Assembly: GCA_030609135.1 (NCBI GenBank)
Contig: JAUWCU010000010.1
Coordinates: forward strand, 1-34,067
Direction of reading: 5' to 3'
Source of the DNA: Candidatus Stahliibacteriota bacterium
GTDB lineage: Bacteria > Hydrothermota > Tepidihabitantia > SM23-42
DNA: 34,067 nt
Shown here: in pieces, positions 1,266 to 11,268 of the stretch
Layout of the letters: each line of letters opens with the position of its first letter
How positions within the stretch are numbered: position 1 is the first letter of the stretch
Made by a program: the position numbers and the translations under genes
The notes under the pieces: model-generated
Seen by the model: the letters and a program-made list of their open reading frames with translations, nothing else
What the model was told of the DNA's origin: nothing
Databases searched by the model: none

Positions 1266-1817
1266 TTAACCGTTCTTCTTTTTCAATAACTCTTTTCCAT
1301 ATTCAAAGCCACGATCAAATGCAGTCATATTTAGCTCCAATGCTTTCTCAGGAACCGACCCAGGCAAAGCCTTTTTCATCCCTTCATAAGTCACAATCTC
1401 AGTTATCGCGGTAAAAAACCCCAACATAATAACGTTAGCCACGATCTTTCTACCGAGCTCTTCAGCGAAACGTGTTGCCGGTATAGAATAGACTTTAATA
1501 TTACCACGGGGTGATTTATGCTTCACCATATCTTCGTCAACGAGCAGTATACCATTTTCACTGAGTCCTGGTTCAAACTTATCATAACCCTCCTGTGACA
1601 TAGCAAACAGAACATCGACATCGGTTACATAGGGATATAATACTTTGCTTTCTGACACGACGAGCTGAGAGCTGCAAGCACCTCCCCTTGCTTCTGGACC
1701 AAAGGATTGGCTCATAGTAGCGTATTTATTGTCGTAAATCGCGGCGGCTTTGCCGGCAATTATCCCGGATCTAATAATACCTTGACCCCCGTAACCTGCG
1801 AATCTAACCTCAGCCAT
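1266..1817 (-). CDS. korC: 2-oxoacid:ferredoxin oxidoreductase gamma subunit
   Basis: MAEVRFAGYGGQGIIRSGIIAGKAA..QSFGPEARGGACSSQLVVS. Start inside the track ORF; 8 nt ATGGCTGA overlap with the preceding gene. Confidence 0.9.
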   Translation of the reverse strand: MAEVRFAGYGGQGIIRSGIIAGKAAAIYDNKYATMSQSFGPEARGGACSSQLVVSESKVLYPYVTDVDVLFAMSQEGYDKFEPGLSENGILLVDEDMVKHKSPRGNIKVYSIPATRFAEELGRKIVANVIMLGFFTAITEIVTYEGMKKALPGSVPEKALELNMTAFDRGFEYGKELLKKKNG

Positions 1818-2583
1818 TCTTGCCTCCTGCTCCTTTTTTCCCGGACTCAATGCCGTATGGAGTGAATTTCTCACCCAACACGTTGCCGAGCTGAGCATTA
1901 TAGGAATCAATAAATGTTGATCTTTCTTTGCTCGTGAATTTCCCCACGATAATTTTGTTCTCCGGTGTTATCCCCACATTCCTTGGATCCTCATCATTCC
2001 TTATCTCTGAGTTGTCGTAATAGAAACGTACAAGATCAGCGTTCACGTTACTGATGCTTGTATAGTAATCAGGCCCGGGTGCCAGAATTTCAATAATTGA
2101 CAGACCTTTCTTATTTAAAGCTTCGGCAATCGAATCGGCAAGTTCTTCAGTATGCAAAGCTGTCCAGCGCGCCGTATATATTGCACCGCATGAGTTTCCA
2201 AGATGCGGGATATTGAACGGCTCTTCGAATGTTGAATACGGTGAAAATTTCGGAGTTTCTATTGACACCGCTTTACCGGCGATCTTTCTGTACACGAAAT
2301 TATTAATACATATCACAGTAAGCTCCATATTTCTTCGACTGCCATGCACAAAGTGATTGCCACCAACCGTCATGAGGTCACCGGTAAACGGAACAACTTT
2401 AAGAGCGGGGTTAGCTAATTTAAGCCCCGTGCCAAATGCAATGGCTCGACCACGCGTCGTGTGAAAATAATCAAAACCAAAATGTTTGACTATTGCTGGT
2501 TCGAACAAAATATCCGAAGGGACACAAACCTGGTTGGGTTTTACCCCTGCTTTTTCAAGACCTTTGGCAAACGTCGTAATCAA
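1810..2583 (-). CDS. Degenerate KorB-like paralog lacking Fe-S cysteines and the intact TPP GDG motif
   Basis: Homologous to the 4083-4976 protein (FHTTRGRAIAFGTGLKLANP, GGNHFVHGSRRN, EPFNIPHL), but starts (TTG) after the WCPGCG region and reads FTGDLMTVGG where KorB has FSGDGDLIAIGG. Confidence 0.85.
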   Translation of the reverse strand: MITTFAKGLEKAGVKPNQVCVPSDILFEPAIVKHFGFDYFHTTRGRAIAFGTGLKLANPALKVVPFTGDLMTVGGNHFVHGSRRNMELTVICINNFVYRKIAGKAVSIETPKFSPYSTFEEPFNIPHLGNSCGAIYTARWTALHTEELADSIAEALNKKGLSIIEILAPGPDYYTSISNVNADLVRFYYDNSEIRNDEDPRNVGITPENKIIVGKFTSKERSTFIDSYNAQLGNVLGEKFTPYGIESGKKGAGGKNG

Positions 2584-4082: not shown

Positions 4083-4976
4083 CTAACCGGGTTCATTTTC
4101 ACCACCTTTGACTTTGGATAACCACTCGTTGTAGCGATCTGTATAACTCGGTCTTTCCCGGTCAATGAATTTACCGACTATGATCTTTCCCTGAAAATCT
4201 ATATCAAGATTCTTGGTATCTTCGCCATTACGTATTTCTGCATTATCATGGTAGTAGCGCATCATATCAAGACCATCCCCTAATCGGTTAATCCTTGAAT
4301 AATACTGGGCACACGGCGATATAGCTTCAACCACAGAAAACCCCTTCTTGTTGAGTGCTTCAACAAATGCATTAGTAAGCCGACGGACATGAAGCGTGGT
4401 CCAGCGCGCCACATACACAGCACCTGAAGAATCTGCTAAGTATGGAATATTAAAGGGTGGCTCCACACACCCGAAAGGACAGGTTGTTGCATATGCAGTA
4501 AGCGGTGTTGTTGGAGCAACCTGACCGCCGGTCATCGCATAGATAAAGTTATTTACACATACAACGAGCATATCGATATTTCTTCGGGCGGCATGAATGA
4601 AATGGTTTCCACCGATCGCAATAAGATCACCATCACCAGAAAAAACCACGACTTTCATATCTGGGTTGGCAACTTTAATGCCGGTAGCAAAAGCAATAGC
4701 CCGTCCATGAGTAGTGTGGAATGAATCAAGCTTCACATACCCGGCAACCCTGCCGGTACAACCAATGCCTGAAACAATGACTATTTTGCTAAGATCTATC
4801 TCGGCTTTTTCAAGCGCCGCTGCAAATGCAGTAACTGCCAAGCCAATCCCACAACCCGGACACCAGATGTGTGGTATCCTATCCATACGAAGCACGTTTT
4901 CCATCGGATGGATTCTGTCCATACTTGATGAATCAACTTGGATTTTCTTTTGCTGGTTTGTTTTTGGTGTTTGCAT
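4083..4976 (-). CDS. korB: 2-oxoacid:ferredoxin oxidoreductase beta subunit, canonical motifs
   Basis: IPHIWCPGCGIG, GIGCTGR, HGRAIAFATGIKVANP, SGDGDLIAIGGNHFIHAARRN, YAMTGGQ, TCPFGCVEPPFNI. Confidence 0.92.
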   Translation of the reverse strand: MQTPKTNQQKKIQVDSSSMDRIHPMENVLRMDRIPHIWCPGCGIGLAVTAFAAALEKAEIDLSKIVIVSGIGCTGRVAGYVKLDSFHTTHGRAIAFATGIKVANPDMKVVVFSGDGDLIAIGGNHFIHAARRNIDMLVVCVNNFIYAMTGGQVAPTTPLTAYATTCPFGCVEPPFNIPYLADSSGAVYVARWTTLHVRRLTNAFVEALNKKGFSVVEAISPCAQYYSRINRLGDGLDMMRYYHDNAEIRNGEDTKNLDIDFQGKIIVGKFIDRERPSYTDRYNEWLSKVKGGENEPG

Positions 4977-4987
4977 TCTATATCCCC

Positions 4988-6181
4988 TTATCTGAACTTA
5001 ATAATCCCATCTTTGATATTGTCCACCTGGACCGCTTGATTTATCGCTCTGAGAATATCATCAGTATTTTCAACACCTTTTTCACCATGCGCTATGAAAA
5101 AAACATTTGCTTTGCCATAACTACACCGTTCGACCTCTAAAACAACCTGTCCCAAATTCATTTCTGGGACGACAAATGCCTTTACCTTATCAGCAAGTTC
5201 TGCCACGCGCTCTTCTGGAAATGGCCAGACCGTGACTAATTTTAGACTTCCAACCTTTAACCCTAAACCCCTTGCTTGTTCCATTGCTTTGAACGCAGCT
5301 CTTGATGTCGCGCCATATGAGACAATGACGACGTCAGCATCCTCGGTATTGGCTTCCTGTACTTCAATAATCTCATCTGTATAATCCCGGATTTTTTTTA
5401 CCAGCGGATGCACATTGAGCTCTTGACATTCTTCATCCATTATTGGATAACCGCGATCATCATGGGTCAACCCAGTTACGTGAAACTTGTATCCCTGACC
5501 AATGTCAACCATAGGGGGAATCATATCTTCATCTCTTTTAAAGGGTAGATAGCTGTCTTTCGGACCGTCAAAATATCGGCGCGGTTCAAGTCTAATATCT
5601 TCAGCATGCGGGATCACTACATCTTCCTGTAAATGGGCAAGGTATTGGTCAGACATAATAGCCACAGGGATACGGAAGCGTTCTGAAAAATTAAATGCCT
5701 TGATTGTAAAATCAAACATTTCCTGTGAAGAACTCGGTGCCAGTGCGATCAACTCATAATCACCGTGTGAACCCCAGCGCGCCTGCATCATATCGGCTTG
5801 AGATGGCTGGCTGGGTAAGCCGAGGCCCGGGCCAACTCTTTGAACATCGACGATCACACAAGGTGTCTCCAGCATAATGCCCAGGCCGAGATGTTCCATC
5901 ATAAGCGATAATCCAGGGCCTGAGGTCACGGTCATCGATTTCTTACCGGTCCACGAAGCACCAATCACCGCCGCAAGGGCTGAAATTTCATCCTCCATTT
6001 GAATAAATGTCGCGCTAGCCTTTTTTGCTCGCTGAAGAAATCTTTCGCTGACCTCTAATGCCGGTGCGATAGGATAAACACCCAGGAACCGACATCCCGC
6101 AGACAACGCGCCTTCTGCACAGGCTTGATTACCACTAAGATTATGCGTGCCCGTTAAAACACCACTTGGGTCTGCCTTCAC
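4988..6181 (-). CDS. KorA-like paralog with altered YPITP motif
   Basis: Full-length KorA homolog but YPIAPALE in place of YPITPSTE and QRVGPGLGLPSQPSQ in place of QRGGPSTGVPTKTGQ. GTG at 6181 preceded by AAAGGAGGT. Confidence 0.87.
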   Translation of the reverse strand: MKADPSGVLTGTHNLSGNQACAEGALSAGCRFLGVYPIAPALEVSERFLQRAKKASATFIQMEDEISALAAVIGASWTGKKSMTVTSGPGLSLMMEHLGLGIMLETPCVIVDVQRVGPGLGLPSQPSQADMMQARWGSHGDYELIALAPSSSQEMFDFTIKAFNFSERFRIPVAIMSDQYLAHLQEDVVIPHAEDIRLEPRRYFDGPKDSYLPFKRDEDMIPPMVDIGQGYKFHVTGLTHDDRGYPIMDEECQELNVHPLVKKIRDYTDEIIEVQEANTEDADVVIVSYGATSRAAFKAMEQARGLGLKVGSLKLVTVWPFPEERVAELADKVKAFVVPEMNLGQVVLEVERCSYGKANVFFIAHGEKGVENTDDILRAINQAVQVDNIKDGIIKFR

Positions 6182-6223
6182 CCGGTTAGACCTCCTTTCA
6201 ACCATCTAATAATATAACACTTA

Positions 6224-9640: not shown

Positions 9641-10473
9641 TCTCTACGTCCAGTTACCCTTATTGCAATAATATTTAAGATTGTAATAATAATGAATAGA
9701 AAAGCCCCACAGGCAAAAAGTGCGGCACGGTGATCCCCGGTTGCATAACCTAATTCCAAGGCGATCGTCGAAGTTAGAGTACGGACCGAATCCAATATTG
9801 AATGGGGTATTTTTAGTGCATTACCAGCGACCATAATCACTGCCATGGTTTCACCAATTGCCCGTCCCATACCAAGGATAATACTGGCTACGATACCTGA
9901 ACGAGCCGCTGGTATAAGCAGCTTAACTACGGTCTGCCATTTGGTTGCGCCTAATGCGTAAGATCCCTCACGATAGGTATTGGGCACGGCAATTAGTGAA
10001 TCATAGGATATGCTGACAATGGTTGGCAAAATCATTATGCCCAAAATAATACTCGAAGCCAGCACTGAAAACCCTGGCCCTCCAAAATGAGTGCGAATAA
10101 ACGGCACCAGGATAACAATGCCGATAAAACCATAGACCACCGAGGGAATACCGGCTAATAATTCAATAATCGGCTTCAAGGTCTTTTGAACCATTTTTGA
10201 GGAGAATTCAGCGAGATATATAGCGCAGGCAAGGCCAAAAGGTATACCAACAACCAGGGCACCGACCGTGACCATTAATGACCCGATAATCATCGATAAA
10301 ATACCAAATTGACCTCTGGTTGGCGACCAGTGCATTGAAAAGAAATTACCCAACCCGATTTTGAAAATCAAAGGAATACCCTGTTGAAAAATAAAAAAAG
10401 TAATAAGAAGAAGTGAACCGATTGCAGAAAAGGCAATGACGAGCAGGAGTTTCTCAGCGATCTTATCTTTCAT
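9637..10473 (-). CDS. pstC: Phosphate ABC transporter permease PstC
   Basis: IELLAGIPSVVYGFIGI, LGATKWQTVVKLLIPAA, LGMGRAIGETMAVIMVAGN; 4 nt overlap with pstA. Confidence 0.93.
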   Translation of the reverse strand: MKDKIAEKLLLVIAFSAIGSLLLITFFIFQQGIPLIFKIGLGNFFSMHWSPTRGQFGILSMIIGSLMVTVGALVVGIPFGLACAIYLAEFSSKMVQKTLKPIIELLAGIPSVVYGFIGIVILVPFIRTHFGGPGFSVLASSIILGIMILPTIVSISYDSLIAVPNTYREGSYALGATKWQTVVKLLIPAARSGIVASIILGMGRAIGETMAVIMVAGNALKIPHSILDSVRTLTSTIALELGYATGDHRAALFACGAFLFIIITILNIIAIRVTGRRE

Positions 10474-10476
10474 GCG

Positions 10477-11268
10477 CTAATCATTACTGATTTCTGTAGC
10501 AGATATCAAACCATCACTTTTTAATATGTCCTGCCCCTCTTTTGAAAGCACAAACTCAATGAATTTCTTCACCTCACCAGTCGGTTCTTCAAGTAGCAAA
10601 AGTAGAAAAGGTCTGGTAAAGCCATATCGGCAGGTGATAAGATTTGCAAGCGTCGGTTCAACGCCATCTATTGCCAAGGCTTTTTCGCGTTCGTCAACCA
10701 AGCCAACTGAAATATAGCCGATCCCTTGTTGTGTTGTGGCGATTATTTCACGGACCGCCCCGTTTGAATCCTGAACCAAACAGGCGTCACTGATCACCTG
10801 GTCACCCATAATCATGTCTTCAAACGCACCTCGGGTACCTGACCCTTCTTCTCTGGTAACCGGGATGATTTTACCTTTCGTGCATCCGAACTCTGACCAG
10901 TCTTCATAGATTCCAGAAAAGATGCCTTGTATTTGTTCAATGGTCAAATCATCTATTAGATTATCTTTATGGACAATAACTGCAATCCCGTCAACTGCCA
11001 TTAAGTATGTTTTCAAACCCCGCTCACTGACTTTCAAATTTCGCGATGAGGCGCCGATATGACAAGTATTATTCAAGGTCGCCTGAATTCCGGCAGTTGA
11101 CCCTCCACCCTGAACATTTACCTGGATACCTGGGTTTTCTTCGGTGAAGCGCTCGGCGACTCGCTCGATAAAAGGTTGAATTGACGTAGATCCAGCAATA
11201 ATGATGCTACCTTTTCTCTGGGAACAGGTTGTGAGTAAAAATATGCAAACAATGGCGAGATAACGCAC
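10477..11268 (-). CDS. pstS: Phosphate-binding lipoprotein PstS
   Basis: Lipobox-like LLTTC, IAGSTSIQPFIERVAERF, GGGSTAGIQA, TREEGSGTRGAFE. GTG start. Confidence 0.92.
   Translation of the reverse strand: MRYLAIVCIFLLTTCSQRKGSIIIAGSTSIQPFIERVAERFTEENPGIQVNVQGGGSTAGIQATLNNTCHIGASSRNLKVSERGLKTYLMAVDGIAVIVHKDNLIDDLTIEQIQGIFSGIYEDWSEFGCTKGKIIPVTREEGSGTRGAFEDMIMGDQVISDACLVQDSNGAVREIIATTQQGIGYISVGLVDEREKALAIDGVEPTLANLITCRYGFTRPFLLLLLEEPTGEVKKFIEFVLSKEGQDILKSDGLISATEISND

Follow-up and report, generated by a model that had tools for sequence, protein, structure and literature searches.

The window, the whole 34,067-nucleotide stretch of DNA analyzed here, carries an operon in which the alpha and beta genes of a 2-oxoacid:ferredoxin oxidoreductase (OFOR), an energy enzyme common in anaerobes and normally made of two identical working halves, have been duplicated and have then undergone reciprocal, conserved losses of active-site motifs, with selective retention of the elements that act in trans between protomers. 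The five linked genes probably encode an obligate asymmetric enzyme, in which a catalytic half, A2B1, is paired with a structural half, A1B', that completes the pocket. The first-pass annotation had recognized a dead beta subunit, KorB' (= KorB2), and had missed the degeneracy of KorA1, which recasts that dead subunit as the nonworking half of an enzyme whose two halves are reciprocally degenerate.

The kor operon and its origin

On the minus strand the genes run korA1-korB1-korA2-korB'-korG (Table 1), and the start of korG overlaps the stop of korB' (ATGGCTGA). The operon includes one full catalytic alpha-beta set plus gamma (A2, B1, and KorG). Three further POR_N alpha genes lie elsewhere in the genome, all of them distant from A1 and A2.

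Table 1. Positions of the five kor genes in the window and the evidence for each assignment
Gene product	Coordinates	Strand	Evidence
KorA1, pseudo-alpha	4988..6205	(-)	POR_N + PFOR_II domains, motif tables
KorB1, intact catalytic beta	4083..4976	(-)	TPP_enzyme_C 112 bits, motif alignments
KorA2, alpha with intact cis active-site residues	2589..3854	(-)	Domain profiles, motif tables
KorB' (KorB2), pseudo-beta	1810..2583	(-)	ORF, paralog alignment, ortholog motif tables
KorG, single gamma subunit	1266..1817	(-)	POR, PF01558

In maximum-likelihood trees, A1, A2, B1, and B2 each form one clade (support 100/99, 100/99, 100/99, and 100/100, respectively), and the intact single-copy A-B-G operon of one genome (G050) adjoins these clades. 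The five-gene operon came from a single korAB duplication. Within the window's family nearly every complete locus has the order A1-B1-A2-B2-G, which is also seen in several further families of its phylum. Besides WOR-3/Stahlbacteria, the operon is present in records titled Cloacimonadota and in two further phyla; by reading the loci we confirmed it in the Cloacimonadota-titled genomes (8 of 125 from that phylum match), in the phylum of G149, with 2 strong matches out of 82, and in that of G150, with 4 out of 80. In G010, G017, and G021, which belong to the window's family, and in sister families, the operon has just the three genes A-B-G, and none of the motifs is lost.

Loss of cofactor motifs in a retained beta subunit

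The first-pass annotation had described KorB' as a pseudoenzyme beta subunit that lacks all Fe-S ligands and the TPP motif and is retained rather than decaying. The open frame of 257 codons that it reported was confirmed. KorB' shares 45% identity with KorB1 (E 4e-80), and all of the substitutions that had been listed relative to this intact paralog are present in the alignment. The suggested profile comparison with the beta family gave a divided answer: KorB' matches PF02775 (TPP_enzyme_C) with 62 bits against a cut-off of 21.9, but scores 103 bits against TIGR02177, under the cut-off of 262; the intact KorB1 likewise falls under it (202), so the second result is only weakly informative.

An intact N-terminus encoded upstream would, according to the same annotation, refute its description. 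This possibility is excluded: no Cys, and hence no CxxC, occurs in frame upstream of korB', the frame is open only to 2646, and the orthologs, none of which has an N-terminal CxxC segment among those examined, share the same start. They begin with ATG at the codon that corresponds to window positions 2592-2590, three codons before the TTG. The window has ATA at 2590-2592, so translation of its korB' probably starts at TTG 2583.

To place the Fe-S ligands, we aligned KorB1 to the beta chain of Sulfolobus tokodaii; they fall in WCPGC (C12, C15), SGIGC (C46), and ISPC (C197), in S. tokodaii beta numbering. In that chain, we take C46 and C197, as is general for the family, to be the two ligands that remain besides C12 and C15. 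The latter pair are Fe-S ligands in S. tokodaii (PMC5020499). All four [4Fe-4S] Cys are absent from every complete KorB2, the fourth by replacement of SPC with APG, SPG, and similar. The first-pass annotation had mistaken TCPFGC for a ligand motif, at a position where single-copy relatives have no Cys; its statement that all ligands are lost still stands, because the true fourth ligand, the Cys of SPC, is lost as well. GDGD is shortened by the two residues it had noted, and MTGGQ is altered, in every KorB2 examined, so that the absence of the four Cys and of the GDG loop extends to the orthologs. The second Asn of NN, at the Mg site, is present in the window and is N, S, H, or D across orthologs; in the S. 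tokodaii OFOR, Mg-TPP is held by GDG and Asn118b (PMC5020499). We infer from sequence alone that KorB' binds neither Fe-S nor TPP.

Each of these losses is common to all of the roughly 40 distinct ortholog sequences sampled (30 distinct plus 11 more, a few truncated at contig ends), which come from several phyla. Pairwise dN/dS against orthologs, a check the first-pass annotation had proposed, is 0.05-0.14 in the informative pairs and similar for the neighboring genes. Ancestrally conserved columns are kept at 93% in B1 and 52% in B2. An AlphaFold2 model of KorB' built from 17 orthologs (pLDDT 76.9, pTM 0.81) has OFOR beta chains as its top PDB matches in Foldseek (6n2n_B, E 1.3e-15, TM 0.67); a model of KorB1 was set aside (pLDDT 46.5, too few sequences). 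Losses shared across phyla, purifying selection, a retained fold, and strict conservation of the operon thus strongly support KorB' as a retained pseudoenzyme beta subunit, neither truncated nor decaying, whose inactivity is inferred. That it is instead a decaying pseudogene, or an artifact of assembly or annotation, might be argued from the losses themselves and from the missing ortholog ATG in the window copy. With identical losses and intact frames across so many sequences and phyla, low dN/dS, and strict synteny, this is scarcely credible, and we reject the pseudogene reading on the shared losses, the intact frames, and dN/dS.

At the former KorB' pocket new residues have become fixed in every copy (HGR to RGR, SG to (S/T)D), so the pocket, empty by prediction, is not free to drift. 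The same residues could mean that the dead A1-B' interface is a new functional site, for another ligand or for docking of a redox partner, and not only a structural half. We regard this as very improbable: homology to known ligand sites is lacking, and the fixed residues may merely fill the vacant TPP cavity.

KorB-like paralogs with the opposite pattern occur elsewhere. In L043 (G000:C88), two KorB-like proteins (4670-5488 and 10095-10880 (-)) keep the four Fe-S Cys and have lost GDGD and MTGGQ; the stretch has no KorA, and the neighboring genes are HdrA-like, NfnB/GltD-like, and DHODB/FNR-like, together with an MvhD. The pattern is the same in 10/10 such paralogs from five genomes (L043, L047, L048, L085, and L086). 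These proteins, a mirror image of KorB', are possibly electron-transfer-only beta subunits.

Reciprocal losses and the inferred pairing of subunits

In the S. tokodaii OFOR, crystal structure and mutants establish that Thr256a and Arg344a bind the substrate carboxylate and that all residues of YPITP are required (PMC5020499). The window KorA1 has YPIAP for YPITP and GPGL for GPST, and retains both QMEDE, with its TPP-activating Glu, and the VTGLTHDDRGYP trans loop. No KorA1 whose sequence extends over these motifs has either Thr: A, V, M, I, E, P, Q, R, S, or F stands in place of the one in YPITP, and that of GPST is missing. Arg123, the equivalent of Arg344, is kept in the window A1 and missing from many others. 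KorA2 has its cis residues intact (YPITPST, QRGGPSTG, MEDE) and a relaxed trans loop (ISGRLHDERGYP); KorB1 is complete for the four Fe-S Cys, GDGD, NN, and MTGGQ, and lacks the C-terminal GDKF tail. Every A2 and B1 examined keeps the motifs lost from A1 and B2. Because A1 has lost the substrate Thr and B' the Fe-S and TPP motifs, with A2 and B1 intact, only the pairing of A2 with B1 has the full set of cis residues, and A1 with B' is predicted to be unable to form an active site; activity itself is inferred.

The operon might nonetheless encode two enzymes, an A1-B1 OFOR of altered specificity, comparable to oxalate oxidoreductase, and a non-catalytic or regulatory A2-B' pair. A1 does adjoin B1 in gene order, all A1 copies have the TPP-activating Glu, and YPIRP, the oxalate oxidoreductase motif, appears in some of them. 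Yet no single new specificity residue emerges among the replacements of the A1 Thr, the substrate Arg is missing from many A1, and an A2 with all cis catalytic residues would be left with only a cofactor-less B' as partner. We consider two enzymes unlikely, and an oxalate-oxidoreductase-like specificity of A1 is rejected, as the Thr position of YPITP is too variable. YPIRP is absent from the window alphas (A1 YPIAP, A2 YPITP) and restricted to a few distant A1; these belong to one lineage (L176, L178, and L179, of G386, G385, and G387), where it stands in an otherwise pseudo-alpha context.

An asymmetric OFOR accounts for why a dead protomer would be kept, since each OFOR active site is made complete by elements from the opposite protomer. 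In S. tokodaii, Asp468 reaches the pocket from the opposite protomer (PMC5020499), and the beta C-terminus stretches over the other subunit in the structure. If a dead A1-B' protomer faces A2-B1, A1 should therefore keep the Asp468' loop, which A2 may lose, and B' should keep the tail, which B1 may lose. Both predictions of the pairing were met. The loop, VTGLTHD(D/E)RGYP, is almost invariant in A1 and in single-copy alphas and relaxed in A2; the 20 residues from residue 242 are the most A1-favoring stretch of alpha relative to A2, and random column draws gave p = 0.0006 for residues 238-262 (a permutation that ignores phylogeny). The contrast is weaker in the deepest lineages, where some A2 keep TGLTH (L112, L132, L175) or SGLTH (L172). 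B2 has the tail (GDKF and downstream residues), which reads VLGEKFTPYG in the window, as do the closest single-copy betas; B1 lacks it.

These trans elements also bear on whether A1 and B' act to inhibit the enzyme or to regulate its assembly, swapping with A2 and B1 in an otherwise symmetric (A2B1)2. Dead paralogs do regulate active partners elsewhere, as in the T. brucei AdoMetDC prozyme (PMC5201418) and deoxyhypusine synthase (PMC3663545), but (A2B1)2, in which A2 has lost the trans loop and B1 the tail, would seem incomplete on its own, and the genes are strictly co-operonic. We give such swapping little weight, less than the two-enzyme reading.

Under the preferred asymmetric arrangement, the five genes would make one OFOR, a dimer of alpha-beta protomers as in known OFORs, with protomers that are unlike. 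A2-B1 would be catalytic, with TPP-Mg and [4Fe-4S] in B1 and the substrate carboxylate in A2; A1-B' would be dead, B' binding neither cofactor and A1 not holding substrate. A1 would lend its Asp468'-position loop to the A2-B1 pocket, and the C-terminal tail of B' would reach over the partner protomer. At the Asp468' position every A1 has Leu, as does, according to published work, the 2-oxoglutarate-specific KorAB of H. thermophilus, and B1 is still basic at the position of Lys49b, which the S. tokodaii OFOR requires for 2-oxoglutarate (PMC5020499); on these two residues an enzyme of the 2-oxoglutarate type is likely, but not shown. Two different alpha and two different beta genes predict asymmetry, with stoichiometry inferred. 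Assembly, the facing of subunits, single-site activity, and substrate likewise remain inferences for a complex without structure or biochemistry.

Further points count against the asymmetric reading, besides this lack of structure and biochemistry, the neglect of phylogeny in the permutation, and the weaker loop contrast in the deepest lineages. The Asp468' assignment is borrowed from a distant enzyme, the window A1 keeps the Arg344 equivalent, though many A1 do not, and the TPP-activating Glu is kept in every A1, where a site entirely without function should have no use for it. This Glu may serve the inter-site communication proposed for thiamine enzymes or be only structural; we cannot tell which.

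Relation to known oxidoreductases and pseudoenzymes

A search of the open literature for pseudoenzyme or duplicated OFORs returned nothing relevant, most subscription papers being outside its scope, and in the searched passages of a metabolic survey of WOR-3, korABCD figures merely as a pathway marker. We lean, with somewhat more reserve than for the asymmetry itself, toward the broader view that a two-site thiamine enzyme has become a fixed one-site machine in several candidate phyla, its pairs dividing cis roles (TPP, Fe-S, carboxylate) from trans roles. The two active sites of thiamine enzymes are thought to alternate through communication between cofactors (cited for OFOR in PMC5020499), and an OFOR with one site since an old duplication would, if real, be a natural test of the need for the second. 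It would also be a clear bacterial case in which reciprocal active-site loss has converted a central metabolic enzyme from a pair of like protomers into an obligate heteromer, and a single enzyme of this kind would be scored as two by annotation pipelines that tally korA and korB.

Known OFORs (S. tokodaii 5B46-48, M. marinus 6N2N, and H. pylori 8YS5) have homologous alpha, beta, and gamma subunits; their full catalytic set is carried here by A2 and B1, and the predicted fold of B' matches their beta chains. In them, two identical protomers form a dimer that has two active sites, whereas here two reciprocally degenerate pairs and one gamma gene make up a five-gene operon. Oxalate oxidoreductase of Moorella thermoacetica is also an OFOR with a changed alpha YPITP motif (YPIRP; PMC5020499), but there the Arg is functional and the dimer consists of two identical catalytic heterotrimers, whereas in A1 that position is free to vary and the window has Ala. 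A parallel in logic lies in the trypanosomatid deoxyhypusine synthase (PMC3663545) and AdoMetDC-prozyme (PMC5201418), obligate hetero-oligomers in which a catalytic paralog likewise needs a dead one. Those enzymes are unrelated to the OFOR, and in the kor operon two types of subunit have lost complementary parts, along with a cofactor and a metal cluster.
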